Origin: Campylobacter sputorum subsp. sputorum
GTDB lineage: Bacteria > Campylobacterota > Campylobacteria > Campylobacterales > Campylobacteraceae
Direction: 5' to 3'
Assembly (NCBI RefSeq): GCF_008245005.1
Contig: NZ_CP043427.1
Span: 806,001 to 870,000, forward strand
Length of the DNA: 64,000 nt
Shown: positions 8,277-51,182 of the stretch, in pieces
How the letters are laid out: every line of letters starts with the position of its first letter
How positions within the stretch are numbered: position 1 is the stretch's first letter
Program-made: the position numbers and the translations under genes
The notes under the pieces: generated by a model
Seen by the model: only the letters and a program-made list of their open reading frames with translations
What the model was told of the DNA's origin: nothing
Database searches by the model: none

Positions 8277-8441
8277 ATGAAAAATGTAATTATATTAATA
8301 TTTGTTTTATTTTTTTTAAGCGGTTGTTTGTGGTTTAATGAAAGAGGTGTTTCTACTAGATACTACAATGATTGCAAAGAGTATTATGACGCAACTGGGA
8401 CTTATCAAAAACAATGTCCACAAAATATTATTGATTGGTAG
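8277..8441 (+). CDS. Small lipoprotein (54 aa)
   Basis: This short frame has an ATG, a hydrophobic leader and a lipobox (F-L-S-G-C, cysteine at about residue 16). A small mature domain with two more cysteines follows (D-C-K-E-Y-Y-D and K-Q-C-P-Q-N). It ends four bases before cmoB, so the two are probably co-transcribed. A tiny lipoprotein gene is, from memory, also near cmoB and the Cj0977-like gene in C. jejuni. Function is unknown. Confidence 0.6.
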   Translation: MKNVIILIFVLFFLSGCLWFNERGVSTRYYNDCKEYYDATGTYQKQCPQNIIDW

Positions 8442-8445
8442 ATAA

Positions 8446-9339
8446 ATGAATCTTGAAGAGATAAGAAAAGAAAAATTAAATGAACTCAATCTTGAAATTT
8501 ATAAAAAAAATATTAGTAATATATCAAATTTGCCCATCATAGAAGCTGAGTGTAAATTTGATGATGTTATAGAAATTTCAGCAGATATCGATGATAACAC
8601 TAAAAATTTAGTTTATGAAACGGCTTTAAGTTTAAAGCCTTGGAGAAAAGGACCTTTTGATATTTTTCAAACTTTTATAGATTCTGAATGGCAAAGTTTC
8701 ATTAAATTTAATATTCTAAAGCCATTTTTAAATTTACAAGGTAAAGTTGTTGAGGATATAGGTTGCAATAATGGCTATTATCTTTTTAGAATGTTAAATT
8801 ACAATCCGGCAAAATTAGTAGGTTTTGATCCTGGCATTAGGGCGTATTTGCAATTTAAATTTATAAATCATTTTATTAACAGCAACATACACTTTGAGCT
8901 TTTAGGGGTAGAGCATTTGCCTTACTACGAGCATAAATTTGACACTCTTTTTTGTTTAGGTGTTTTGTATCATAGAAGCGATCCGATAAAATGCTTGAAA
9001 GATCTTAAATTATCATTAAATCCAAATGGTGAATTATTTTTAGACACTATGATTATCAATAGTGATAAAGAAATAGCTCTTTGCCCTAACAAAACTTACT
9101 CTAAGATACCAAATATATATTTTATACCAAGTATAAAGGCTTTGCAAAATTGGTGTCAAAGGGCTAAATTTAAAGATTTTACAATACTTGCAACAAAAAA
9201 AACAGATGAAAATGAACAGAGAAAAACAAGCTGGATTGATGGTGAAAGTTTGGGTAATTTTTTAAACAATAAAGATAAAAATTTTACAGTAGAAGGCTAC
9301 CCGGCACCGCTTAGAGCTTATATAAAGCTTAGTATATAA
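8446..9339 (+). CDS. cmoB: tRNA U34 carboxymethyltransferase CmoB
   Basis: CmoB transfers a carboxymethyl group from carboxy-S-adenosylmethionine to 5-hydroxyuridine at tRNA position 34 to make cmo5U, which widens wobble decoding. The 297-aa protein has the expected N-terminal region (L-K-P-W-R-K-G-P-F near residue 66) and a Rossmann methyltransferase core. The cofactor motif is V-V-E-D-I-G-C-N-N-G-Y-Y, followed by G-F-D-P-G and L-F-C-L-G-V-L-Y-H-R-S-D-P. It starts immediately after the small lipoprotein gene and is 9 bases upstream of the hot-dog-fold gene, the same pair as Cj0976-Cj0977 in C. jejuni. Confidence 0.93.
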   Translation: MNLEEIRKEKLNELNLEIYKKNISNISNLPIIEAECKFDDVIEISADIDDNTKNLVYETALSLKPWRKGPFDIFQTFIDSEWQSFIKFNILKPFLNLQGKVVEDIGCNNGYYLFRMLNYNPAKLVGFDPGIRAYLQFKFINHFINSNIHFELLGVEHLPYYEHKFDTLFCLGVLYHRSDPIKCLKDLKLSLNPNGELFLDTMIINSDKEIALCPNKTYSKIPNIYFIPSIKALQNWCQRAKFKDFTILATKKTDENEQRKTSWIDGESLGNFLNNKDKNFTVEGYPAPLRAYIKLSI

Positions 9340-11351: not shown

Positions 11352-12485
11352 ATGGAAAAAATAGATTTTTTTAGACCTCAAATAGATGACAAAGAAAAAG
11401 AGCTTATAAAACAAGCATTAGAAAATCCAAATAGTGTTGATATGGTTCTTGATTTTGAAAATAGTATAAAAAAATATTTTGGTGTAAAGCATGTTATTTC
11501 TACTAATAATGGTACATCTGCAAAACATCTTGCACTTTGTGCCATGGATATCAAAAGAGGCGATAAAATAATTTGTTCTGTAAATTCATTTCCAAATATC
11601 GCTGAAGTTATAAGACATTTTGATGCAGAACCTATTTTTGTTGATATAAAAGAAGATGATTTTAATATCAACCCTCAGAAATTTGAAGAAGTTATTAAGG
11701 CAAATAAAAGTAAAAAACTAAAATGTGCATTTATAACTCATATGGCTGGCCAATCTGCAGATATGGAAGAAATTTATGATATAGCTAATAAGCATGAAAT
11801 ATATATAATAGATGATGCAACTAATGCTCTTGGTGCGACATATAAAGGTAAAAAAATAGGAAGTATGAGTTCTAAGATATCTTGTTTTAGAATAAATTCA
11901 CAGTTTAATATTAGTGTTGCAAGTGCTGGTTTTATGGTAACAAATGATGATGATATAGCCAAAAGAGCTTTACTTTTAAGAAATCATGGAATAATAAACA
12001 ATGGTGGTAAAAATGATAATCTTGGCTATATTTACGATGTCATAGACATAGGCACAAAATATAACCTTAATACACTAGATGCTGCTTTTTGTTTGGCTCA
12101 GTTTCAAAAAGTTGATATGTTTATCAAAAAAAGAATAGAAATAGCGTCTATTTATAATCAAAATTTAAAAGATTGTCCGCATATAGAAATTCCTGTAAAT
12201 AATGGCGAACATACTTATTCTCAATACATAATAAAAGTCGATAAAAATAGAGATAGTTTTGCTAGAGATTTAGCAGATCTTGGTATAAGCACAGCTCTTC
12301 ATTATGTTCCTTTAAATCTTTTAAGTTATTATAAAAATAAATATAATTTAAAAGTAAATGCATTTCCATCTGCACTGAAGACATATCAAACTGTTCTGTC
12401 TTTGCCTATTTATTCTGATTTGAAAAACGAAGAGATTGAGTATATTTGCAGTAGCATTTTAAAAACAGCAAAATCTCGTGTGTAG
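11352..12485 (+). CDS. DegT/DnrJ/EryC1/StrS-family protein lacking the PLP lysine
   Basis: A 377-aa fold-type I PLP protein resembling nucleotide-sugar aminotransferases: F-F-R-P-Q-I-D at the N-terminus, S-T-N-N-G-T-S-A-K-H-L-A-L (cofactor phosphate region), D-D-A-T-N-A-L-G-A (pyridine-nitrogen aspartate) and L-L-R-N-H-G-I. In active relatives a segment of the form S-F-H-P-x-K-x-I-T-T-G-E-G-G carries the Schiff-base lysine. The colinear stretch here is R-I-N-S-Q-F-N-I-S-V-A-S-A-G, and the lysine position is Phe185 (codon 11904-11906). It is therefore probably not an ordinary transaminase. I chose ATG 11352, which follows AAAGGGAA, over an ATG at 11337. The next gene, lpxK, overlaps by eight bases, hinting at a link to envelope synthesis. 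Confidence 0.85.
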   Translation: MEKIDFFRPQIDDKEKELIKQALENPNSVDMVLDFENSIKKYFGVKHVISTNNGTSAKHLALCAMDIKRGDKIICSVNSFPNIAEVIRHFDAEPIFVDIKEDDFNINPQKFEEVIKANKSKKLKCAFITHMAGQSADMEEIYDIANKHEIYIIDDATNALGATYKGKKIGSMSSKISCFRINSQFNISVASAGFMVTNDDDIAKRALLLRNHGIINNGGKNDNLGYIYDVIDIGTKYNLNTLDAAFCLAQFQKVDMFIKKRIEIASIYNQNLKDCPHIEIPVNNGEHTYSQYIIKVDKNRDSFARDLADLGISTALHYVPLNLLSYYKNKYNLKVNAFPSALKTYQTVLSLPIYSDLKNEEIEYICSSILKTAKSRV

Positions 12486-13413
12486 ACAAAAAATACATTT
12501 ATGGATAAATAGATATTTTTATAGACCAAATTTATTTGATATATTTTTATCCATAATTTTGCTGCCATTTAGCTTTATTTATGGATTTTTGGTTTGTATA
12601 AAAAAGCTCTGTTTTAAACCAAAAAATTTTGATATAAAAATTATAAGTGTTGGAAATATAATCGTCGGCGGTAGTGGAAAAACGCCACTTGTTAAAGCTA
12701 TTTATGAGTTATTTGCCCCACAAATCAAAACTTTTATCATTCTGAGAGGTTATAAAAGAAAGTCAAGCGGCTGTTTGCTGGTTGCAAATGATGGAGAAAT
12801 TTTTTTAGATGTTATAAAAAGTGGCGATGAAGCTATGGAATATGCTAAGTTTAAAGCAAATGTTATAGTTAGCGAGGATAGGAAATTTGGTATTGATATG
12901 GCTAAAAAATACGGAGCGAAGTTAATTATTTTTGATGATGGATTTTCTAAATTTGATATAAATAAATTTGATATTTTGCTTAAGCCGCAGATAGAGCCAT
13001 TTTTTTCATTTACTTTTCCAAGCGGTGCTTATAGATATCCAACTTTTTTTTATAAATTTGCAAATTTTATACCACAAAATTCAGATATTATAAAAAATAG
13101 TAAAATTATAAATCCAAGCGATAAAATGCTTTTAGTTACAGCTATAGCAAATCCGCATAGATTAAAAGAGCATTTTGATAAATGCGTAGGTATGGAGTTT
13201 TATCCAGATCATTATGATTTTAATAAAAATGAACTTTTAAATTTATTGCAAAAGTATCAAGCCACAACGCTTCTTATTACTATGAAAGATTTTGTAAAAA
13301 TTGAGAGTTTTAATTTGCCTACTTCAATAATAGTTTTAGAAACTACTATTAGTCAAAAATTTGCAAAAACGCTTTATAATTATGTCTTTGATAGTAAATT
13401 TAGTTCGTTTTAG
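12478..13413 (+). CDS. lpxK: Tetraacyldisaccharide 4'-kinase
   Basis: LpxK phosphorylates the 4' position of the lipid A disaccharide at the inner membrane. The 311-aa protein begins with a GTG start overlapping the previous gene by eight bases, a sign of translational coupling. A membrane-associated segment at about residues 20-42 precedes the P-loop V-G-G-S-G-K-T (residues 63-69). The family blocks L-R-G-Y-K-R-K, S-G-D-E-A and I-F-D-D-G-F follow. kdsB, another lipopolysaccharide core gene, lies further along the same run. Confidence 0.92.
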   Translation: MCRQKIHLWINRYFYRPNLFDIFLSIILLPFSFIYGFLVCIKKLCFKPKNFDIKIISVGNIIVGGSGKTPLVKAIYELFAPQIKTFIILRGYKRKSSGCLLVANDGEIFLDVIKSGDEAMEYAKFKANVIVSEDRKFGIDMAKKYGAKLIIFDDGFSKFDINKFDILLKPQIEPFFSFTFPSGAYRYPTFFYKFANFIPQNSDIIKNSKIINPSDKMLLVTAIANPHRLKEHFDKCVGMEFYPDHYDFNKNELLNLLQKYQATTLLITMKDFVKIESFNLPTSIIVLETTISQKFAKTLYNYVFDSKFSSF

Positions 13414-40290: not shown

Positions 40291-42867
40291 ATGCACAAAC
40301 AGGTAAATACTTTATATAAAGTAGCACTACTAACTATTTTTGGATGTGCTTATGGCGAAGAGATTGTATTTGATACACTTGATGTATCGGCAAATCAAAT
40401 GCCATATCATGGTAAATCAAATTTAAAATCCTACTTAAAAACTGGCTCATTTTCATATCTAGATAATCAAGATATAACTAGATTTAGAGGTAGTTCGGTT
40501 GGAGATTTTTTAAGTGGAATTCCTGGAGTCATGGTTACAAATAAACGAAATAGTGGTGCAATAACAGTAAATATTAGAGGAATTCAAAATGAAAATAGAG
40601 TTCCTATTTACATCGATGGAGCACTTCAGTCAATTCCATCTTGGCAAGGATACGCAGGATCTAGCACTAGAACTTACCTTGATCCTGACTTGATAAGCCA
40701 AGTAGAGATAGAAAAAGGGGTTTCATTTGCAGGAGATGGAGTTGGTGCAACAGGAGGAGTGGTAAGACTATCAACAATTAACTATAAAGACGTAATTAAA
40801 GATGATAAAGACTGGGGTTTAAGAATAAGAGGCGGAACTATGTCAAACACTAGAAAAAAGCCTCCTTTATATCAAAGAGGTGGATATAGAACAAAATGGG
40901 TGGATAAGTGTTTAACAAATGATAGTGGTAAATGTAAAGAACAGACATATGATACCCCTGCAAACTATCAAAATGGAAATTTATTTCAAAATTTAGGAGA
41001 TAGCTGGAATGGAAGTGTGGCTTTTGCCAAAAAATGGGAAAATGCTGATATTGTCTTAGCTTATGCTAGAAAATATCAAGGCAACTATTTTGCTGGCAAG
41101 CATGGAAATAATACTAAAATTTCAGGTATTGAAAAACATAAAGAAGAGGACTTTACAGTCGGCATAAACAAAGATGAAGTATATCACTATGGACCTTATA
41201 TAAGATATGGCACTTATGATGAAGATGTGATTTTAGGAAAACTTAAATTTCATGAAAATCCCGGATATACATATTTTAGAAGCGGCGAAGAGGTTTTAAA
41301 TACATTTCAGGAAAATAAATCATATTTAGCTAAATTAAATCTCTATAACGACTATCACGCATTTAATATATCTTATTTAGGATATAGAAGTAAATTTGGC
41401 GAACTTATGCCAAGTCAAACAAGTATAAGAAGTGATGGGGCTTTGCAAGGAGAGGGAAATGAAGTTGAAGTTGATACTTTTAGTTCGGCATATAAATATA
41501 ACCCAAATGAATATATAAATTTAAAATTAAATACTTACTATACTAAAAATGATACTTCATTTTTTATGCCCTTTGTAGAAGATCAAATAGAGCTAAATGA
41601 GAGTAGTTTTCATACATCGCATGATAGTAGATATGCCTATTTTATCATCTCGCACCAAAAAGGAATTGGTTTAGAAAACACAACAAATTTAATACTTTTT
41701 GATAGACCGCTTAGCTTAAACTATGGAGTATCTTATAGTTATGAAAAATTTACTCAGCCAAAAGATAAAGATGATAGAATAAAAGCAAAAAACTACCCAG
41801 CAAATTCAAGCGGACCACTTTTTGAAAGACATGCAAAAAGAGATGAAAAAAGTGTATTTTTATGGGCAAATTATGAGATTACAGATAAACTTATAGCTGA
41901 TGCCGGACTTAGGTATATAAATACTACAATTAAGGATTATATGCCATTAGTAAAACAAGAACAAAAATTAGTCATTCATCCAACTCCTCATATAGAAACA
42001 AGATATATCAATATCTACACCCCTGAGTTAAAAAATAATGCTATAAGCCCCGCTTTTATGCTTACATATAAGCCAATAGATGAAATTTCATTTTATATAA
42101 AATACGCTCAAGCTGTGAGAAATCCTAGTCTTTTTCAAGCTTCAAAAGGTTGGAGCCAGCAAAACTACTCAGATGGTGGCTTTGTAAAATTAAAACCAGA
42201 AAGGCAGCATAATTTTGAGATTGGAACGAATTTATTGTTTGAAAATTTATATGGATTTAATAATGTTTTTGGGGTTAAATTTGCGTTTTTTAACAATTAC
42301 ACAAAAGATTATTTAACAAGGACTAATATTTTAAAAAGCGATTTTCAACAAACTACAAATATCAAAAGTGCTCTGTTTAGAGGATTGGAAAGTTCTTTAT
42401 ACTTCGATACTGGTGGATTTTATACAAATTTAGGCTTAACTAGATACTTAGATACTAAATTTTGCAAAAGTGGCACAAGCTTAAAAGATGGTGATAAAGA
42501 GTGCTTTAGGGGTGGAATAAGCGGTAGTAATTTAGCAAATGCAGTTCCGCCAAAAACAACGCTTTTTACAACCATTGGAACAAGACTTTTTAATAATGCC
42601 CTTGATATGGGTGCTAGACTTAGCTACTACTCAAAAAGGTTTGTATCTATTTTTGATTCGTCTTCAGAAGTAAGCGAAACTTATAGTGCCCAGTGGGATA
42701 GTCATAGTATAGTTGATTTATATGCAAGTTATAAGCCAAATGATAGCTTAACTATATCAGCTGCTATTGATAATTTAACAAATAGATACTACATAGATGC
42801 AAATAATATGAGTCTATCTCCTGCACCTGGTAGGACTTTTCGCTTAGATTTTGAGTATAAATTCTAG
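40291..42867 (+). CDS. TonB-dependent outer-membrane receptor, probably iron or haem related
   Basis: An 858-aa protein with a signal peptide (about residues 1-22, ending C-A-Y-G-E), then F-D-T-L-D-V-S-A as a TonB-box-like start. The plug domain includes D-F-L-S-G-I-P-G-V-M-V, V-N-I-R-G-I-Q-N-E-N-R-V and V-E-I-E-K-G-V-S. The large beta barrel ends in the aromatic F-R-L-D-F-E-Y-K-F expected for outer-membrane insertion. S-P-A-P-G-R-T-F close to the end is the usual last barrel motif. A Fur-box-like operator predicts induction by iron starvation. Ligand cannot be told from sequence: haem, transferrin-type and siderophore receptors are all possible. No periplasmic binding protein or ABC importer is adjacent. 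Confidence 0.88.
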   Translation: MHKQVNTLYKVALLTIFGCAYGEEIVFDTLDVSANQMPYHGKSNLKSYLKTGSFSYLDNQDITRFRGSSVGDFLSGIPGVMVTNKRNSGAITVNIRGIQNENRVPIYIDGALQSIPSWQGYAGSSTRTYLDPDLISQVEIEKGVSFAGDGVGATGGVVRLSTINYKDVIKDDKDWGLRIRGGTMSNTRKKPPLYQRGGYRTKWVDKCLTNDSGKCKEQTYDTPANYQNGNLFQNLGDSWNGSVAFAKKWENADIVLAYARKYQGNYFAGKHGNNTKISGIEKHKEEDFTVGINKDEVYHYGPYIRYGTYDEDVILGKLKFHENPGYTYFRSGEEVLNTFQENKSYLAKLNLYNDYHAFNISYLGYRSKFGELMPSQTSIRSDGALQGEGNEVEVDTFSSAYKYNPNEYINLKLNTYYTKNDTSFFMPFVEDQIELNESSFHTSHDSRYAYFIISHQKGIGLENTTNLILFDRPLSLNYGVSYSYEKFTQPKDKDDRIKAKNYPANSSGPLFERHAKRDEKSVFLWANYEITDKLIADAGLRYINTTIKDYMPLVKQEQKLVIHPTPHIETRYINIYTPELKNNAISPAFMLTYKPIDEISFYIKYAQAVRNPSLFQASKGWSQQNYSDGGFVKLKPERQHNFEIGTNLLFENLYGFNNVFGVKFAFFNNYTKDYLTRTNILKSDFQQTTNIKSALFRGLESSLYFDTGGFYTNLGLTRYLDTKFCKSGTSLKDGDKECFRGGISGSNLANAVPPKTTLFTTIGTRLFNNALDMGARLSYYSKRFVSIFDSSSEVSETYSAQWDSHSIVDLYASYKPNDSLTISAAIDNLTNRYYIDANNMSLSPAPGRTFRLDFEYKF

Positions 42868-42988: not shown

Positions 42989-43594
42989 CTAATTTTTAAT
43001 AGATTTTAAAGAGTTTTTTATAGAATTTATCAATGTATCAAATTCGCCTGAATTTTGGAGTTTTAATAATTTATCGTTTATATTAAGCATATCTTTTGTG
43101 TATTGATGAGATATTATATCATTTATAAAAAACTCACTATCACTTTCATCGCTTATTTTAAAAAGTTCTCTCCAAATATCTGTTATCCACCAGCCACACA
43201 TTGAGATACTATCAAATTCACTTAAATATTTTGTTTTTAAAATTAATGCCATATCATCACTTAAAGAATCATCACTGAAAAAATCTCTATGCCTTTCATC
43301 AGCCTTTATAAAAAGCCTATATCCAAAACCATTTATTTTGTTTTCACAACAAATTCTAAACCCAAATGCATTGTTTTTATATTTTTTACAAGAAATACAA
43401 AGTGGATGTTTTTGCATAAAATTTGGGTATGAATTTAAACTTTCATCATCAACACTAAGCTCCCAAATTTTGCTATTTGTTAATTTTAAAAATTCATTAA
43501 AAGATAGTATAAAAAAATTCTTATAAAGCAACTCTTGCCCATGAAATATATCACTATTTGGATCAATACTAGCTTTATAATCCTTAAATTTCAC
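42989..43594 (-). CDS. Hypothetical protein with a cysteine cluster
   Basis: A 201-aa protein of unknown family, GTG start preceded by GAGGG. It has no signal peptide or membrane segment. The middle holds C-I-S-C-K-K and R-I-C-C-E-N about 16 residues apart, a possible zinc or iron-sulfur site, and a later M-C-G-W-W motif. The rest is helical and acidic. It lies downstream of the molybdoenzyme operon but a strong hairpin (43607-43640) separates them, so it may be independently expressed or a read-through member. Confidence 0.5.
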   Translation of the reverse strand: MKFKDYKASIDPNSDIFHGQELLYKNFFILSFNEFLKLTNSKIWELSVDDESLNSYPNFMQKHPLCISCKKYKNNAFGFRICCENKINGFGYRLFIKADERHRDFFSDDSLSDDMALILKTKYLSEFDSISMCGWWITDIWRELFKISDESDSEFFINDIISHQYTKDMLNINDKLLKLQNSGEFDTLINSIKNSLKSIKN

Positions 43595-43606: not shown

Positions 43607-43640
43607 AAACAAAGTTAGGCAATTATACCTAACTTTGTTT
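43607..43640 (-). terminator. Hairpin terminator of the molybdoenzyme operon
   Basis: A perfect 13-bp inverted repeat (43607-43619 with 43628-43640) and an 8-base loop lie directly after the nrfD-like stop codon on the minus strand. Confidence 0.75.
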
Positions 43641-43643
43641 AAA

Positions 43644-44507
43644 CTAAAATATATAAAATGCTCCAAAAATAACAAACACTCTAAGACAAAAACCGCCGAT
43701 TAAAATAGCATATTCACTATAAACACAGCTTTTTACTTCAACAACCGCTTGTGAATTTTTAGCTTTCATTATATATTTACTTCCACCAATAAGTGGAAGC
43801 AACAAACCAACTAGGATAAATCCTATCCAAAACACAAATGCCAACGAACCTGACATAATTTTAGTTATACTTTTCAAACCTGATAACTCGCTAGAAACAG
43901 ATGCAAATAAAAATATAATAGCAACAATTTCTAAAATAATTAAAACATTATGCAAAGTATGCACTTCGTGAGTTAATTCACTATCTTTGTTTAGACTATA
44001 TGCCGAATTTGCACTAAGTCCTGTTGATATGGCTGAGATAGTAAAAATTATCGGAACCCAAACGCTAGCCCAAAGTGGAATTGCTTTTACAGCGTATAGT
44101 AAAAGTCCAGTATAGCCCATAACTCCTAATGCCAACAATGAACCTAAAAACAAAACTCTATCATTTAAAGCTTTTTTATTTTTAAGCCAAAATAGCACCA
44201 ACGCACTGACAATTATAAAAAATGTCAGCAAATATGTTCCCAAACTCATCATAGATGTAGGATGAGAATAAAGCTTGATGATAGCAAGTGGATTTATAGC
44301 CGCACTTGGTGCTAAATCAAGCAAAAGTAAAATCGTTCCTGCAATCACAGCAACAGGAGCTAAGAAAAACCCAAATTTATAAAATTTCTCATCTAAACTA
44401 CCCAAATAGCCTTTATATGCTAAAACTGAGCATAAAAAAGCACCACTTCCAAGACCTCCTAAAAATAGATATATGACTATCAGCCATCCCCAAGTTGTTT
44501 GCTCCAT
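43644..44507 (-). CDS. NrfD/PsrC-type membrane anchor subunit
   Basis: A 287-aa polytopic protein with about eight hydrophobic helices. G-W-L-I-V-I-Y-L-F-L-G-G-L-G-S-G-A-F near the N-terminus is typical of the NrfD/PsrC family. It anchors the ferredoxin and molybdopterin subunits and exchanges electrons with menaquinone. This is the last gene of the seven-gene operon, ten bases after the TorD-like gene. Confidence 0.85.
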   Translation of the reverse strand: MEQTTWGWLIVIYLFLGGLGSGAFLCSVLAYKGYLGSLDEKFYKFGFFLAPVAVIAGTILLLLDLAPSAAINPLAIIKLYSHPTSMMSLGTYLLTFFIIVSALVLFWLKNKKALNDRVLFLGSLLALGVMGYTGLLLYAVKAIPLWASVWVPIIFTISAISTGLSANSAYSLNKDSELTHEVHTLHNVLIILEIVAIIFLFASVSSELSGLKSITKIMSGSLAFVFWIGFILVGLLLPLIGGSKYIMKAKNSQAVVEVKSCVYSEYAILIGGFCLRVFVIFGAFYIF

Positions 44508-44517
44508 TTTTAATCCT

Positions 44518-45135
44518 TTAACTTCGTTTTAAAATTTTGTTTAAAATTTTAATTTCATTTTCTAGATACAATCTCACAAATTTTGCAAATTCTCGCCAAA
44601 TTTCCAGCCTTGATTCATCAATGCAAAGTTTTGTGAATTGATCAAACCAATTTAAAGGGTGAGAGTGTAAAAAATCGCTTTTTTCCTTGATAATTTCATC
44701 ATTGCTAGAATTAATCGCTTTATAACTCATAAAATAGAGATATTCAAACTCAAATCCTATAAAATCATCAGGAAATTTATCATCTTTGATTTTTATTCCA
44801 GCCTTTGTGTAAAATTCTCTAACCTGCATAGTTTTTTCGCCAAACATTGTGTGATAATCAAAATAAACTGATTCATACGGCACAGCTTTTGGACGCGTAG
44901 GACCTACAAAAAGTCTATTAAATTCCCACCTTGCTTCGTTTAAATACTTGCTATCTTTTTTAGCCTTTTTTAGTTCGCTAATAAATGGATGATTTATTTG
45001 AGGTTCGCTTAAATTTGTAGAAATATCTAAAATTTCTTCTAAATTTTCTTGATTAAATTCAAACAAAAATAGCCTTCTACACATATCTTCCATAATCAAA
45101 CTATTGGATAAATTTTTGGCTAAAAATTCGTTCAT
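44518..45135 (-). CDS. TorD/DmsD-type molybdoenzyme chaperone
   Basis: A 205-aa all-helical cytoplasmic protein. F-V-G-P-T-R-P-K-A-V-P-Y-E-S-V-Y is the conserved TorD-family motif (L-F-x-G-P-x-x-x-P-x-x-P-Y-E-S), with H-P-L-N-W-F-D-Q-F near the end. Such chaperones hold the Tat signal of the catalytic subunit until cofactor is inserted. It lies between the ferredoxin and the membrane anchor genes with spacings of nine and ten bases. Confidence 0.88.
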   Translation of the reverse strand: MNEFLAKNLSNSLIMEDMCRRLFLFEFNQENLEEILDISTNLSEPQINHPFISELKKAKKDSKYLNEARWEFNRLFVGPTRPKAVPYESVYFDYHTMFGEKTMQVREFYTKAGIKIKDDKFPDDFIGFEFEYLYFMSYKAINSSNDEIIKEKSDFLHSHPLNWFDQFTKLCIDESRLEIWREFAKFVRLYLENEIKILNKILKRS

Positions 45136-45144
45136 CTTTTATCC

Positions 45145-45693
45145 TTATTTTGTGAAATTTGCACTTTTGATTCTTGGATAAAATCTAATATTTGGCTTAG
45201 TAAAACTATGCACAAACCCTACCATCTCTTTTTGCATACCGGCACTATCACAAACATCACTTGGGACTAATCTTAAAACCCCAACAGGACAGCCCTCAAC
45301 GCAAGCTGGTTCTTCGCCTCTTTCTAGTTTTTCAGAGCAAAGATTGCATTTTTGTGCTTTTTTATCTTTGCCTTTTGTTATAGCACTATATGGACATGCC
45401 AAGATACAATATCCACACCCTATGCATCTATCGTGTAGTGGCTCAACAACGCCATTATCAAGCTTTTTATAAGCTCTAACAGGACAAACATGCAAACAAG
45501 CAGGATTGTCGCAGTGATGACAAGAATGAGAAAAATATACATCCTTACTAATTCCATGCTCATGAATGCTTATTCTATCAACTTTACGCCAATTTATGTC
45601 TGGATCTTGATTGTGATAGACTTGACAAGATACTTCACAAGCTTTACAACCTATACAAAAATTTTGATCAAATAAAAATCCTAATTTTTTCAT
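45145..45693 (-). CDS. Four-cluster ferredoxin subunit (DmsB/PsrB type)
   Basis: A 182-aa electron-transfer subunit with four 4Fe-4S motifs: C-I-G-C-K-A-C-E-V-S-C, C-H-H-C-D-N-P-A-C-L-H-V-C-P, C-I-G-C-G-Y-C-I-L-A-C-P and C-N-L-C-S-E plus A-C-V-E-G-C-P-V-G. It lacks its own signal and would ride through the Tat system with the catalytic subunit. It starts nine bases after the molybdopterin subunit gene ends. Confidence 0.93.
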   Translation of the reverse strand: MKKLGFLFDQNFCIGCKACEVSCQVYHNQDPDINWRKVDRISIHEHGISKDVYFSHSCHHCDNPACLHVCPVRAYKKLDNGVVEPLHDRCIGCGYCILACPYSAITKGKDKKAQKCNLCSEKLERGEEPACVEGCPVGVLRLVPSDVCDSAGMQKEMVGFVHSFTKPNIRFYPRIKSANFTK

Positions 45694-45702
45694 CTTACAC
45701 CT

Positions 45703-47970
45703 CTAATTATGCTTTTTAACTTCAACGAAATTAGCCGCATACGTTGAGCCATCGCCTAAATCGCTGATTCCATCAGAACACAAAATATTTGCAACTGTTT
45801 TTGAATTTGTGGCTTTTGCCCAAACATGTCGCCATGCATAAGTTAAACCAGGCTTCATCTCGTTTGACTCTACGACGCAAAATATCGCCGTTCCTTTTTC
45901 GTTTGCAACCTCTACAATATCGCCATCTTTTATGCCACGATCATCCATATCTTCTTTTGTCATGAAAATCATCGCTTCGCCGTTTCTAACCATTCTTTTT
46001 ACGATATAAGGCATACTTCCCCAGTTTGTATTATCTTGAAGCTGGCTTCCAGGAGTCATGAAAAATAGTGGATATTTTTTTACATATTCTTTACCATAAT
46101 GCTTTTCATAATAATCCTTATCAGTTCCAAGATCAATAACAGGATGGTATCCTGCATCTTTAAATTTCTTGGAATAAAGCTCGCATTTTCCACTCTGGGT
46201 GCCAAAAGTTAAATTATCTTTTGGTGCGTATGGATAGTGTGGATGTAACTCTTTCATCGTTTCAGGGGTTCTAAATGGTTTAATTTGACCTGTGGCTTTT
46301 AGTTTTTCATAAGTTATATTTTGACTTTTTGCAAACTTAGTATCTAAAAATTTCCTACAAACAGTCTCACTATCCCAGTCAAAACACTCTTCTGTATAGC
46401 CCATAGCTTTTGCAAGAGCGTTGAAAAATTCCAAATTTGTCTTAGCTTCGCCAAGTGGTTTTACAGCCTGAGCGTTATAACAAACATATCCTGAAATTTG
46501 ATCATTTTGTATATCTTCGCTCTCCATAAATGTAACTCCTGGTAAAACATAATCAGCCCAGTCGCAAGTATCTGTATTATATGGATCAATTACAACTAAA
46601 AAGAAATCATCTTCTATAATTCTTTTTTTAATTAAATTTGTATTTGGTGCTGTTGTCATCAAATTTGAGTTGTAATTTATGCAAGCTTTAATAGGCACAT
46701 TTACAGGCTTACCAAGGCAAGTTGCACCTTCTTTTTGGATACCTTTTCCAAATTCCACATAACTTACTCTTTGCCTTTCTATTTTGTTACCAAACTCATC
46801 TTTTGGCGATAAATCAGGCATACAATTTTCAAAATTAAAGCACCCGCTTACATGCACATACGCCCAAAATAAACCTCCGCCTTGCTTAGTTAAAGCACCA
46901 ACCAGCACAGGCAAAAATGTAACCGCTCTAACAAGTCTTGCACCATTATAATGTCTTTGTCCGCCATCGCCATGCATAATGGCTGGATTTTTTGCTTTTG
47001 CATAAAGTCTTGCAAAAACTTTAATCTCATCAACACTAACCCCGCACATATTTGCAAGTTCTAAATATGTATATAATGAGCACTCTTTAACTAACTCATC
47101 AAAGCCCATTGTATATTTCTCAACAAATTCATGATCATAAAGATCTTCTTCGATGATAAATTTACACACAGCCAAACAAAAAGCAGGATCACTTGATGGT
47201 TTGATTTGTATAAACATATCAGCTTGATTTGCAAGAGGGATTCTAATTGGATTTATTACAATGATTTTTCCACCTCTTTTTTTAACACGATGAGCAAATC
47301 TTATCCAATGCACGGCTGTATTTGACTCATTTGAACCCCAGCTAATATACATATCTGATTCATCGATTTCTAATGCATCTTTTGAATAATCAGTTCCAAG
47401 AACGCTAGGAGTTCCTGCGTATCTAGGCCAATCGCAAGGATTTCTAACAAGCCTTGTAGCGCCATATTTTTCAAAGAAATTTCCAGGTGCTATTGTTTTT
47501 GAAATATGCCCTTCATTTCCTGAATATACAAACTCGGTTAAAGCTTCACCGCCAAATTCCTCTTTTATTTTAGTTAGTTTTGCGGCAATCTCTTTTAAAG
47601 CTTGATCCCAGCTAATTTTTTCCCACTTTCCTTCGCCTTTTTTTCCAACTCTTTTCATTGGATGCATAATTCTATCTGCATTATAAAGGTGCATTGGATA
47701 GGTGTGTCCTTTAACACAAACGCTTCCTTGTGTTAAAGGGTGTTTTGGATTTCCTTTCATAGCAACCATTTTTCCATCTACAACCTCTGCTACGATTGAA
47801 CAAGCATCACGACAATTCCTAGGACAGGTTAAGTAGTGATAAGTTGTATCTTTTTTGCTGTGAATTTTAGGTTTAAAATCGACTTCAAACTGCTCCATAG
47901 CAAACAAATTTGGAGTTCCGCTAGCAATAGCTAAAACTCCGGTTTGCTTTAAAAATTCTCTTCTTTGCAT
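45703..47970 (-). CDS. Tat-exported molybdopterin oxidoreductase, DMSO reductase family
   Basis: A 755-aa catalytic subunit with a twin-arginine signal (R-R-E-F-L-K at residues 3-8). The N-terminal 4Fe-4S site is C-P-R-N-C-R-D-A-C with a fourth cysteine later (Cys49, Cys53, Cys57, Cys85). The family blocks G-S-V-C-V-K-G, W-G-S-N-E-S-N-T and A-W-R-H-V-W-A-K are present. The metal ligand may be Cys179 (N-P-C-D-W-P-R-Y), but this is only inferred from position. The substrate cannot be told: S- or N-oxides, polysulfide, tetrathionate and others are possible. With the downstream genes it forms a periplasmic reductase (or dehydrogenase) linked to the quinone pool. Confidence 0.9.
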   Translation of the reverse strand: MQRREFLKQTGVLAIASGTPNLFAMEQFEVDFKPKIHSKKDTTYHYLTCPRNCRDACSIVAEVVDGKMVAMKGNPKHPLTQGSVCVKGHTYPMHLYNADRIMHPMKRVGKKGEGKWEKISWDQALKEIAAKLTKIKEEFGGEALTEFVYSGNEGHISKTIAPGNFFEKYGATRLVRNPCDWPRYAGTPSVLGTDYSKDALEIDESDMYISWGSNESNTAVHWIRFAHRVKKRGGKIIVINPIRIPLANQADMFIQIKPSSDPAFCLAVCKFIIEEDLYDHEFVEKYTMGFDELVKECSLYTYLELANMCGVSVDEIKVFARLYAKAKNPAIMHGDGGQRHYNGARLVRAVTFLPVLVGALTKQGGGLFWAYVHVSGCFNFENCMPDLSPKDEFGNKIERQRVSYVEFGKGIQKEGATCLGKPVNVPIKACINYNSNLMTTAPNTNLIKKRIIEDDFFLVVIDPYNTDTCDWADYVLPGVTFMESEDIQNDQISGYVCYNAQAVKPLGEAKTNLEFFNALAKAMGYTEECFDWDSETVCRKFLDTKFAKSQNITYEKLKATGQIKPFRTPETMKELHPHYPYAPKDNLTFGTQSGKCELYSKKFKDAGYHPVIDLGTDKDYYEKHYGKEYVKKYPLFFMTPGSQLQDNTNWGSMPYIVKRMVRNGEAMIFMTKEDMDDRGIKDGDIVEVANEKGTAIFCVVESNEMKPGLTYAWRHVWAKATNSKTVANILCSDGISDLGDGSTYAANFVEVKKHN

Positions 47971-47981
47971 AATTTTTATCC

Positions 47982-48869
47982 TTATTTCATATCAAAGATA
48001 TAAACTTTATTTTCTTTATTATTTCTTGAAAATATATAAAATTTATTGTCTTTAATGCTTAAAGCAACAGGATTTGGAACATTTGCAAAACTATAAGCAT
48101 CAATTAAACTCTTGCTATTAATATCAAGTTTTAAAATAGTAGAGTAGTTTTTGCTTAGCAAATATGCACAATCATCCAAAATATCCACGCCAACTATATA
48201 AAATTCGCCCAAATTTCTATTTTCATCAATGCTTAAATTTCCTCCTATTTTTGGTATATACTCTTCAAGTATCATTTTATCATCGCCGTCAAAAACAGCA
48301 ACACTCCAATAATCTCTCACATCATTTGGCACACTCGCACTTAAAAATATATTTTTGCTCTCATCATAATCAAAGTCCAAAATATATTGCTGCTTCGCTC
48401 TAAGAGTAAAAAATCTATTTTTTTCTTTAAGTTTCCACTTATCATAGCCTTTTAAAAGATGTTTCCACTGCTCATTTTGCTCCTTTTTATCATTTATATC
48501 AATCGGTTCGTAAATAACAAAACTTTTATTATAGCTTATCATCCCAACAGCACCTTTACACCAAGTTGCCCCTACGGTTTTTTCCATTTCTAGCATAAAA
48601 TGTCTATCATGTTTGGCATACCTTAAAGGCTTGAAATTTTCATCAGTGATATAAAATTCATTTTCTTTGCTAACTACGGCAAATTGCTTTGTAGCACTAT
48701 CATAATCAGCTCCTAAAATAGCATTATCGTTTTCTAAATTTATGCTTATTTCTAAAACAGCAGGATTTAAAGCCGTAACTCCTTTTAAGGGTGAGTTTTG
48801 ACTACTTAAATCAAACTCAAATCCAAAACTAAAACTTACAATGCAAATTAAATAAAATAATTTTTTCAT
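47982..48869 (-). CDS. Exported beta-propeller-like protein
   Basis: A 295-aa protein with a signal peptide (K-K-L-F-Y-L-I-C-I-V-S-F-S-F-G) and repeated short beta-strand units with aromatic and aspartate turns (for example A-D-Y-D-S-A-T-K-Q-F-A-V-V, F-D-Y-D-E-S-K-N-I-F-L-S-A, V-D-I-L-D-D-C-A-Y-L-L-S and S-I-K-D-N-K-F-Y-I-F-S-R). The pattern suggests a propeller. In C. jejuni the DsbI protein carries a C-terminal periplasmic propeller; here a DsbB/DsbI-type protein is encoded directly upstream without such a domain, so this gene may encode the same module as a separate chain. Two cysteines lie at W-C-K and D-D-C. Confidence 0.6.
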   Translation of the reverse strand: MKKLFYLICIVSFSFGFEFDLSSQNSPLKGVTALNPAVLEISINLENDNAILGADYDSATKQFAVVSKENEFYITDENFKPLRYAKHDRHFMLEMEKTVGATWCKGAVGMISYNKSFVIYEPIDINDKKEQNEQWKHLLKGYDKWKLKEKNRFFTLRAKQQYILDFDYDESKNIFLSASVPNDVRDYWSVAVFDGDDKMILEEYIPKIGGNLSIDENRNLGEFYIVGVDILDDCAYLLSKNYSTILKLDINSKSLIDAYSFANVPNPVALSIKDNKFYIFSRNNKENKVYIFDMK

Positions 48870-48889
48870 AATCTCTCCTTAAATCACCA

Positions 48890-49582
48890 TTATTCAGGCA
48901 AATCTGGAAGTTCTGGGTTCCAGTCAAATCTAAAGTCAAATGTACTTTCCCAGTGATCTTTTTCCCAAAACCATTTATCACTGTCCAAACTCATCCTTGC
49001 AGGTGTGCTTGAAGCAAGATAAGGCGGAACTCCTGATGTCACAAAAGCTTGAATAGAGTTAAAAGCAATAATTACAATAAATACAATGTTGGCAACTTTT
49101 CCTAAAAAAAGATTTTTTAACTCTTTTTCATACTCGTTATCTGCGCTTTTTTTCATAATTTCAGCGATATGCTTGCTATTTAAAATAAAAATCAAACCTA
49201 AAAATAGCAAAACACAAAAATTTACAACAATTACCCAAAATTGAGTATGGGCCCCTAAAATTTCAAGACCAAAACCTTGCTTTATATCCAAATATCCACC
49301 AAAAGTTCCATCTACAGTGTAATGTATAAATCCGTTAAACAGTCCCCAACAAGCCATAAATATTAAAGCTGCAAAATATGAGACTTTAAATCCATATCTA
49401 ACGATAAGTAAGCCAATAAATGCGATAACTATCATCGTAATTCTCTCAGCCCAGCACATTATACAAGGACTATCACCCATACCAAAGCCAAGAATAATAC
49501 AAGCAATTCCAACAGGTAGTGCCATAAGTAAAATTACAGCTACGCTCATTTGATTAAAAAATTTTTTCTCATAATCAAACAT
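48890..49582 (-). CDS. dsbI: DsbB/DsbI-family disulfide-bond formation membrane protein
   Basis: DsbB-type proteins reoxidise periplasmic thiol oxidases and pass electrons to quinones. This 230-aa protein has about five hydrophobic segments and the periplasmic C-I-M-C-W-A-E-R-I motif near residue 40, the DsbB-like C-x-x-C-x-x-x-E-R signature. The C-terminus is a short soluble tail rich in W and D-W-N-P-E-L-P. C. jejuni DsbI is about twice as long because of an added propeller domain, missing here. The start follows GGAG, ten bases after the dba-like gene. It is probably translated with that gene. Confidence 0.85.
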   Translation of the reverse strand: MFDYEKKFFNQMSVAVILLMALPVGIACIILGFGMGDSPCIMCWAERITMIVIAFIGLLIVRYGFKVSYFAALIFMACWGLFNGFIHYTVDGTFGGYLDIKQGFGLEILGAHTQFWVIVVNFCVLLFLGLIFILNSKHIAEIMKKSADNEYEKELKNLFLGKVANIVFIVIIAFNSIQAFVTSGVPPYLASSTPARMSLDSDKWFWEKDHWESTFDFRFDWNPELPDLPE

Positions 49583-49592
49583 TTTTTAACTC

Positions 49593-49760
49593 CTAAAAAT
49601 TTCCAATAGGCACAACAACCCAAGCATTAACATAAAACTCAAGCACCACAAGTATTAAGCATGCAACAAAACCACAAGCAACTGCTAGACGCTCCTTTTC
49701 TGGTTTAAAATAAATAATCAAAGATGCTATTAAAAGCAAGACTAATTGTAAGAATTCCAT
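49593..49760 (-). CDS. dba: Dba-like small membrane protein
   Basis: A 55-aa frame preceded by AAGGAG. It has two hydrophobic segments (L-Q-L-V-L-L-L-I-A-S-L-I-I-Y and V-A-C-L-I-L-V-V-L-E-F-Y) joined by K-P-E-K-E-R and ends A-W-V-V-V-P-I-G-N-F. In C. jejuni, dba is a similarly short gene immediately upstream of dsbI and its product is needed for DsbI accumulation. Position, size and membrane character fit. Ten bases separate its stop from dsbI, and the dsbI ribosome binding site overlaps the stop. It opens the seven-gene operon. Confidence 0.75.
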   Translation of the reverse strand: MEFLQLVLLLIASLIIYFKPEKERLAVACGFVACLILVVLEFYVNAWVVVPIGNF

Positions 49761-50039: not shown

Positions 50040-51182
50040 TTAAATTTTACAATTTTCTTCTAGTGGATACGATGTAAGTCCATAATCTTTAGACTCTACA
50101 TCCCAAAGGTCTAAATTTGCTTTTTTAGATAAGATGTATTCAAATCCTTTTTGTGTTAAATTTATACATATTTTAAAATCTTGTTTATTTATAAAAACTA
50201 TGCTTTCAAAAAAGTGAGAAAAGCAAATCACTTCACTATCGTTTGTATCAAAATTTACCGATTTATTTAGTAAAAGTTCCATATTATTTAGCATTCTAAA
50301 TAAAATATCACATGATTGAAATTTTCCAAAACGCTCAAAATAAGGTTTTAAATTTTCATTATTTAAAGTTATTTTTTTGCTTAAATTTTTGTTTAATTCT
50401 TGATTTATTATGCTAAACAGACAGATAAAGGCATTTTGATTTTGATAAATTTTGCCTTGTATATTTTCTAAAATCACAAACCCATCCTTTACCACATATT
50501 TTTCATTTTTGTAGTAGAAATTTAAGTTTGAAATTTCATCTTTGAATTTTTTCTTTCTGCTTAGTGGGATATAGTCCATTATTCTCATTTTATCAATTAT
50601 TGCTTCTATTTTTGTGCCACCATTTAATTGATGTTGCATAAAATATCTTATAAAACTACCTTGTTCTTCACTAAAACTATTTAAATACTCAATTTTATCA
50701 AGGTAAGCACACTGGTATAAATTTAAAAATGTTGAGTTTAGTCTTATTTCTACTTCATCTGGTATATCTGCGTATTTTTGAGGCTTTGAAATACTTATAT
50801 AATCTATAATACTCATCTCATCTTGGATTTTATCTTTAACAAAAATTGTTATTTTTACATCTTTTAGTTCATGAAATCTTTTTATTGTATCAACTGCTGT
50901 TTTTGTGATATTTGTTTTAAATTTTTTTACAAGATCTGATTTTTTAATCTTAAAAGTAAAATCGCCATTTTTAAGCTTATTTTGTGAAAATAAAATATAA
51001 AGGCAAGTCTCATAAATCACTAAATGAGAATATGTTAAAAATATATTTTCAACCATAATTGAATAATAACAGCGGGTTACATGATATTTTTTATTGTTAT
51101 TTAGAAATTCATTGAAAATTTTGCCACTATTATTTGGATATAACTTAAAAATATCATAAGATTCTAAAAAAATATTTTCCAT
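50040..51182 (-). CDS. Unknown protein, possibly a winged-helix replication-initiator relative
   Basis: A 380-aa soluble basic protein of uncertain family. It has no signal or membrane segment. Two stretches could be winged-helix domains: about residues 55-150 (F-T-F-K-I-K-K-S-D-L-V-K-K-F then E-V-E-I-R-L-N-S-T-F-L-N-L-Y) and about residues 170-245 (F-I-R-Y-F-M-Q-H-Q-L-N-G-G then R-K-K-K-F-K-D-E-I). That layout resembles plasmid Rep_3-type initiators, but the match is weak and there are no iterons nearby. It could instead be a regulator of the neighbouring membrane protein gene (51387-52967), which is co-oriented 204 bases upstream. Confidence 0.4.
   Translation of the reverse strand: MENIFLESYDIFKLYPNNSGKIFNEFLNNNKKYHVTRCYYSIMVENIFLTYSHLVIYETCLYILFSQNKLKNGDFTFKIKKSDLVKKFKTNITKTAVDTIKRFHELKDVKITIFVKDKIQDEMSIIDYISISKPQKYADIPDEVEIRLNSTFLNLYQCAYLDKIEYLNSFSEEQGSFIRYFMQHQLNGGTKIEAIIDKMRIMDYIPLSRKKKFKDEISNLNFYYKNEKYVVKDGFVILENIQGKIYQNQNAFICLFSIINQELNKNLSKKITLNNENLKPYFERFGKFQSCDILFRMLNNMELLLNKSVNFDTNDSEVICFSHFFESIVFINKQDFKICINLTQKGFEYILSKKANLDLWDVESKDYGLTSYPLEENCKI

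Follow-up and report, generated by a model that had tools for sequence, protein, structure and literature searches.

What does a DsbI-type thiol oxidase do at the head of a molybdoenzyme operon? The question is raised by a locus of Campylobacter sputorum subsp. sputorum that lies in a stretch of 64,000 nucleotides, bases 806001-870000 of the 1.75 Mb single-contig genome (hereafter the window). Seven minus-strand open reading frames (ORFs) run contiguously from 49760 to 43644 in the order dba, dsbI N-terminal part, propeller, moA, ferredoxin, torD and nrfD, with intergenic gaps of 10, 20, 11, 9, 9 and 10 bp. The oxidase is encoded here by two genes, and across genomes of two bacterial families its link with MoA, the molybdopterin catalytic subunit, goes beyond neighborhood. 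The features are as follows (aa, amino acids).

49593..49760, minus strand: dba-like gene, 55 aa with two hydrophobic stretches (ORF, NCBIfam Dba, hydropathy)
48890..49582, minus strand: dsbI N-terminal part, the DsbB-like membrane oxidase domain, 230 aa (Pfam DsbB, NCBIfam DsbI, motif)
47982..48869, minus strand: propeller gene, the separately encoded C-terminal domain of dsbI, 295 aa (NCBIfam DsbI, hhalign, fused in relative L058)
45703..47970, minus strand: moA, molybdopterin catalytic subunit, 755 aa (Pfam, NCBIfam, alignment to solved relatives, cysteine columns)
45145..45693, minus strand: four-cluster ferredoxin subunit with 16 ligand cysteines, 182 aa (Pfam Fer4_11)
44518..45135, minus strand: torD, a TorD/DmsD-type chaperone, 205 aa (Pfam Nitrate_red_del)
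43644..44507, minus strand: nrfD, an NrfD/PsrC-type membrane anchor, 287 aa with 8 hydrophobic stretches (hydropathy, Pfam NrfD)
43607..43640, minus strand: terminator-like hairpin directly 3' of nrfD, the core of a 55-nt fold

The original prediction, of seven packed same-strand genes closed by a strong hairpin, is borne out by the ORFs, by the gaps of 9-20 bp and by the 55-nt fold (-20.2 kcal/mol, z = -5.6, with 0 of 200 shuffles equal or better). The hairpin is absent from the output of the terminator scanner, perhaps because its T run sits within the stem. The gene labels first proposed are also correct at family level (Pfam, NCBIfam), with Pfam scores above cut-off for NrfD (106.8 bits), Nitrate_red_del (92.8), Fer4_11 (68.7), Molybdopterin (134.4) and DsbB (30.5); against NCBIfam the torD gene scores 49.2 bits for DmsD and 48.3 bits for TorD, both below cut-off. 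A MopB catalytic subunit, a 16-Cys ferredoxin and a membrane anchor are thus encoded together, the composition of a complex iron-sulfur molybdoenzyme. Because relatives keep the same order (see below), the grouping is not a product of chance, and the sequence comparisons confirm the seven genes as one predicted unit.

The dba-like gene and the divided dsbI

The dba-like gene sits directly upstream of dsbI, as Dba does. Its product reaches 39.6 bits against NCBIfam Dba (NF050061; E = 3.4e-10), missing the cut-off of 90, and is 45% identical to that of the Dba-like gene of a solitary dba-dsbI pair in the same genome. The next two genes divide the NCBIfam DsbI model (NF050065, 498 positions) between them: positions 5-207 are matched by the membrane gene with 184 bits, positions 231-497 by the propeller gene with 86 bits. 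A profile of 18 propeller genes aligns with the C-terminal domains of 11 fused DsbI proteins over 278 columns (hhalign; 100%, E = 1e-45), and in relative L058 both parts form a single 531-aa gene with no hydrophobic or signal-like stretch at the junction. These matches identify the propeller gene as the detached C-terminal domain of a DsbI-type oxidase split in two. As a domain of DsbI itself the propeller is not an independent client, and its candidacy as a separate client is ruled out by the NF050065 matches, the profile alignment and the fused L058 gene. L058 lies near the base of the DsbI tree in an unresolved position and within the group in the MoA tree; the latter placement would make it a re-fusion.

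The membrane part carries the active site CIMCWAER, in which the CxxCW..R motif is intact, and homology to DsbB places its CxxC, in all likelihood, in a periplasmic loop. No second periplasmic cysteine pair was seen on reading the ORF, which has no cysteine from the second-last hydrophobic block up to the loop of the CxxC-side helices. Four stretches exceed the threshold in simple hydropathy analysis (true DsbI is defined by five transmembrane helices), and the propeller domain, by definition part of the same protein, is present as a separate gene. The N-terminus of that gene resembles a Sec signal by eye; a 19-residue hydropathy scan marked no stretch in it. Neither the propeller protein nor its alignment gave a Pfam match, and a sequence search with the alignment returned no convincing relative of solved structure (best E = 0.041).

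DsbI and MoA across genomes

By sequence search, MoA is present in 19 of the 153 genomes that represent the window's family (E <= 1e-120) and in 3 of 44 from a second family, f20. One locus was read per genome (22 in all: the window, L016, L045-L059, L062, L075-L077 and L099); G050 has the locus on two contigs, one of which was used. The window's genus is represented by two species in the comparison set. A search with the propeller placed the window-type gene mainly in the neighboring genus, where gene order is identical, and propeller relatives with 60-62% identity occur on contigs of Campylobacter concisus and C. gastrosuis. The search for the same gene order in other genomes, proposed at the outset as a check on the operon, thus gave a positive answer. 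Of the 22 MoA loci, 21 have a dsbI free of internal stops ahead of moA within one run, as two genes in 16 cases and as one in 5; in L059 the two dsbI parts overlap. The 22nd locus, L062 of genome G021, has only a dsbI remnant upstream of moA (8326-9332), with no dba found, the membrane part reduced to a 27-residue match and stops in the propeller. The L062 MoA has lost Cys377, and its end branch (0.1) is longer than any other among the NrfD-type sequences (<=0.048), a coincidence with dsbI loss that, as a single event, is only suggestive. moA itself is broken in two loci, by an in-frame stop in L045 and by division into two frames in L059, a locus with a distant torD (32%) and nrfD (38%) as well.

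Of the 44 f20 genomes, three give a DsbI match (NF050065, E <= 1e-5), and these are the three, from three genera, that carry MoA (p = 7.6e-5 under random placement, uncorrected for kinship). Some DsbB-family protein is present in 34 of the 44, so that the scarcity of DsbI there does not mean that oxidases of this kind are generally missing. L099, from the window's family, forms one group with the three f20 sequences in both the MoA tree (support 100) and the DsbI tree (support 98), which fits a transfer of the whole set between families. The DsbI tree also places the 21 MoA-linked DsbIs and 9 duplicates of a second split type (type B, see below) on one side of a branch with SH-aLRT (Shimodaira-Hasegawa-like approximate likelihood ratio test) support of 93.

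The conserved core of the locus is dba-dsbI-moA-ferredoxin-torD, to which a variable electron-input module is added. In the 18 NrfD-type loci (the window, L016, L045-L059 and L062) the set ends with nrfD. L075 and L099 encode a cytochrome b561-type protein between ferredoxin and torD (Pfam for L075; 68% identity for L099), while in L076 and L077 the large and small subunits of a [NiFe] hydrogenase follow torD (Pfam for L077; 85-87% identity for L076). Because the core stays fixed while the module changes, DsbI can be argued to belong to the MoA/ferredoxin unit and not to the anchor. The same data bear on the idea that the set is a transferable cassette whose members share regulation only, with no direct biochemical link between DsbI and MoA. 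The grouping of L099 with f20 in both trees suggests that the set moves as a block, and dba-dsbI pairs elsewhere lie mostly beside genes without a common theme, as this idea would have it. However, the dsbI-moA order is kept in both divergent groups despite changes of electron-input module, regulators and flanks, and DsbI or its remnant is present in 22 of 22 MoA genomes; we therefore regard mere co-transfer as improbable.

Two further ORFs flank the operon and recur around its relatives.

50040..51182, minus strand: orf380 (blastp 56-91% identity; in 15 of 17 other NrfD-type stretches, orientation varies)
42989..43594, minus strand: orf201 (blastp 41-92% identity; in 16 of 17 other NrfD-type stretches, one of them a 92-aa piece, orientation varies)

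No Pfam match (protein or alignment) and no relative of solved structure (alignment search) was found for orf380; orf201 has a Pfam match below cut-off only, and no family is assigned to it. Neither ORF was found in the four f20-type stretches. Farther downstream, at 40291-42867, the window encodes a TonB-dependent receptor, whose best model is a heme/hemoglobin receptor family, below its cut-off. Compared with L016 from the sister species, positions 45760-48260 (moA and the propeller end) show 96-99.6% DNA identity, while the rest of the operon shows 82-96% in most 250-base steps, with two torD steps as low as 72-76%; the mosaic is suggestive of recombination.

DsbI genes are not generally linked to molybdoenzymes. 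We examined 65 stretches that surround DsbI genes or remnants and lack this MoA: 59 of 60 hand-picked ones, the sixtieth being the MoA-bearing L099, together with L014, L015, L060, L061, L063 and L064. Some of the 65 end at contig edges or contain DsbI pieces only. A profile built from MoA relatives found no MopB gene in 63 of the 65, and a general rule that DsbI genes adjoin molybdoenzymes is rejected on this count; the exceptions are L102, with MopB pieces in the same run, and L064, with MopB pieces about 5.7 kb away. Most of these DsbI genes are dba-dsbI pairs without a common neighbor (by eye UvrA, TrpB and ArgS).

The window's genome holds three dba-dsbI sets: a fused pair, a second split set and the set of the operon. 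The fused solitary pair (L015, 6941-9585) stands back to back with a ModE-like gene (HTH_1 + TOBE). The second split set (L014, 3362-5163; G000:C1:493361-495162) is 62% (membrane part) and 38% (propeller) identical to that of the operon, and no MopB gene was found in the 16 kb stretch that holds it. In the DsbI tree this second type, B, is nested within the window type (modest support, 83-88). Six stretches (L045, L046, L047, L050, L053 and L057) have a B-type set convergent to the window-type operon. In L050 the B-type split dsbI is followed on the same strand by a gene for a secreted protein that by eye resembles isoaspartyl peptidases/asparaginases (11642-12679); an equally long ORF adjoins nrfD in L052, a stretch without a B-type set. 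Genome G001 of the sister species has its solitary DsbI spread over two frames (L090, 7001-8511) and no B-type propeller was found there, so that the window-type operon may hold the only intact dsbI of that genome.

MoA and the likely client of DsbI

MoA begins with MQRREFLKQ, by eye a signal for twin-arginine translocation (Tat). Among proteins of solved structure it is matched best by acetylene hydratase, thiosulfate reductase and formate dehydrogenase H. In the alignment Cys179 falls on a cysteine of acetylene hydratase and of thiosulfate reductase and on an unknown residue, X, of formate dehydrogenase H, residues which we take to be the metal ligands in these structures. Assignment as PhsA, DmsA, TtrA or formate dehydrogenase is rejected, as MoA stays below every NCBIfam cut-off among the best 25 of 28 models. 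It reaches 264 bits on PhsA (cut-off 694) and 277 bits on DmsA/YnfE (TIGR02166; cut-off 777.7), the scores on the DmsA and formate dehydrogenase models being about equal to that on PhsA. Nor is MoA the DmsA of this genome, since another protein, encoded at L139 (G000:C1:1722218-1724587), reaches 1041 bits over the cut-off of 778. Two further MopB genes of the genome, L142 and L144, each have one in-frame TGA and resemble selenocysteine formate dehydrogenases. Beyond the phylum, relatives of MoA were sought among plasmids only, and the 17 records obtained all hold MopB relatives with <34% identity.

A fixed core combined with a changing electron-input module argues that MoA works as a reductase, into which electrons would flow from quinol or hydrogen. 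If its substrate were a sulfur compound, such as a disulfide or polysulfide, DsbI could act on a metabolite, re-oxidizing the thiol product or keeping a carrier thiol oxidized. The nearest solved relatives of MoA and its ligand-position cysteine are in line with such a small-molecule path, as are the regulators of the f20-type stretches: all four contain a two-component system, with an SBP_bac_3 sensor in three, and the solved relatives of the L075 sensor include BvgS, EvgS and amino-acid-binding proteins. Yet a reductase and an oxidase working on the same pair would form a loop unless the species differ, DsbI is homologous to oxidases of protein thiols, and the substrate is hypothetical. We consider a metabolite client quite unlikely.

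A protein client is suggested by the cysteines of MoA itself. With 20, it exceeds each of the genome's other eight MopB proteins (6 to 18); five are presumed cofactor ligands, leaving 15 more. We aligned 20 MoA sequences (the window and 19 relatives, omitting the broken copies of L045 and L059). Eight columns beyond the five presumed ligands hold Cys in at least 17 of 20 rows: 269, 309, 529 and 731 in all 20, 265 and 377 in 19, 497 in 18 and 596 in 17. Another five (297, 383, 430, 469 and 538) are Cys in 16/16 NrfD-type rows and in 0/4 f20-type rows. Pairing of these cysteines was sought from their pattern of loss and none was derived. In the ferredoxin, 15 of the 16 ligand Cys columns are kept in 22/22 rows and one in 21/22, with no further cysteine common to all 22 rows. 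TorD is cytoplasmic by family. As MoA is present and cysteine-rich in all versions of the locus, and as the pair co-occurs across genomes, we infer that MoA is the likeliest client of DsbI. The clients originally envisaged were the molybdoenzyme, the propeller or a partner not yet known; the propeller drops out as part of DsbI itself, and the molybdoenzyme gains from its cysteines and its co-occurrence.

DsbI could also serve another, unlinked periplasmic protein, such as a cytochrome or a DsbA-like carrier, that is needed only when the respiratory system runs, in which case MoA would not be a substrate. DsbB-type enzymes normally oxidize a DsbA-like carrier, and elsewhere in the genome a DsbB gene is preceded by an ORF whose product, by eye, resembles DsbA. 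On the other side, no third partner is conserved at the locus in all its versions, and in f20, where DsbI is found only with the cassette, such a partner would have to pre-exist in the hosts. Published work falls on both sides: H. pylori DsbI has a partial effect on the redox state of HP0231 (PMC4597128, available sections), whereas C. jejuni DsbI is uninvolved in the activity of either DsbA (PMC4460558, available sections). An unlinked client seems unlikely to us.

Proposed mechanism and known systems

The locus may thus encode a quinol-fed periplasmic molybdoenzyme reductase with its own Dba/DsbI thiol oxidase, which acts on MoA cysteines; we see the chances of this reading as even. DsbI of this lineage comes as two separate polypeptides: the DsbB-like domain in the membrane, and the propeller, which has a putative signal sequence of its own and would be periplasmic. 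With the help of TorD, MoA and the ferredoxin would fold and acquire their cofactors in the cytoplasm, then be exported by Tat. The propeller would dock on MoA after export, and the membrane part, through its single CxxC, would oxidize exposed cysteine pairs of the folded protein and pass the electrons to the quinone pool; this oxidation could stabilize or activate folded MoA. Dba may support the production or stability of DsbI, by analogy with C. jejuni, whose dsbI is translationally coupled to dba and whose DsbI, when produced in E. coli, undergoes degradation if Dba is missing (PMC3167755, available sections). More broadly, and tentatively enough that we would sooner doubt than expect it, DsbI might represent a class of thiol oxidase for folded, cofactor-loaded Tat substrates, in which the propeller docks one molybdoenzyme and, when split off, acts as a periplasmic subunit in its own right that may associate with the reductase.

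Several observations weigh against MoA being oxidized by its neighbor. Both DsbI parts (184 and 86 bits) are far below the NF050065 cut-off of 800. The branch leading to the split DsbI group is long (1.87), and the joining of this group with that of f20 could therefore be a long-branch effect. In G021 moA is still open beside its dsbI remnant, so that DsbI is maybe dispensable there. MoA columns 265 and 497 are not gained or lost together. Tat substrates fold before export, and the oxidase would therefore need to act on a folded protein. According to the available sections of PMC8708908, cofactor insertion is independent of Dsb, and it is unknown in which redox state the other cysteines of NapA are.

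Neither this operon nor a split DsbI came up in searches of the open-licence literature, as far as the consulted passages go. The closest counterpart of the oxidase is the Dba-DsbI system of Campylobacter (C. jejuni dba-dsbI; NF050061 and NF050065), with which the locus shares a Dba-like gene (55 aa here) directly upstream, a DsbB-like domain with one CxxC and W..R, and a propeller domain homologous over almost its full length. That system differs in that DsbI is one protein there and two genes here, with scores far below the NCBIfam cut-offs, and in that dsbI here precedes a molybdoenzyme operon, while 63 of the 65 other DsbI stretches have no MopB gene. The available text of PMC4460558 calls the role of DsbI still incompletely understood, and the available sections of PMC4152235 report that a C. 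jejuni dsbI mutant is motile and retains 73% of AstA (arylsulfate sulfotransferase) activity.

An analogy with AstA, drawn in the original prediction, does not hold up. It rests on a shared name: in the naming that PMC4152235 argues for (available sections), a single CxxC and a propeller mark true DsbI, and the 'DsbI' associated with AstA in E. coli and Salmonella is to be called DsbB2. AstA therefore provides no dedicated client for true DsbI, and the analogy is rejected as support. The AstA-DsbL-DsbI(DsbB2) system of uropathogenic E. coli and Salmonella does share the arrangement of a dedicated oxidase pair encoded beside a periplasmic enzyme, but here there is neither DsbL nor AstA among the seven genes and no second cysteine pair, and the neighbor is a Tat-type molybdoenzyme.

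For the reductase, PsrABC/PhsABC offers the same combination of a MopB subunit with a ligand-position cysteine, a four-cluster ferredoxin and an NrfD-type anchor. Unlike it, the locus has its own chaperone and its own DsbI, its anchor is replaced in relatives, and MoA misses the PhsA cut-off. The operon 'dmsAB-torC-dmsC', which roughly one C. concisus genome in four carries (PMC10653797), also unites a catalytic subunit, a ferredoxin and an anchor within the same species group; the main text of that paper mentions no Dsb gene. It may be the MoA locus in some strains. No DmsA above cut-off was found in seven MoA-bearing g3 genomes (G022, G025, G027, G036, G039, G045 and G046), and three of 18 hand-picked genomes have one (G000, G001 and G068). 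If the loci are the same, it is relevant that loss of dmsA in strain 13826 leaves growth on N- and S-oxides unimpaired (PMC10653797, available sections). Tat-exported molybdoenzymes have been linked to Dsb proteins before, in C. jejuni, where NapA and TorA are affected by the loss of Dsb proteins; those studied were DsbA1, DsbA2 and C8J_1298, and no effect of DsbI is seen in the available sections (PMC8708908).

DsbI and complex iron-sulfur molybdoenzymes are thus known kinds, and what is new is the split oxidase with its fixed partner. The split form offers a natural route to study the propeller apart from the membrane domain. The DsbA/DsbB route acts on chains exported unfolded by Sec; a DsbI for folded Tat substrates would, if true, differ from it. 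A fixed genomic partner in two bacterial families provides a direct test of what DsbI oxidizes, and the MoA-DsbI pair could show whether thiol oxidation is tied to Tat export and molybdenum respiration. The locus thereby supplies a concrete candidate partner for an oxidase whose role is poorly understood.

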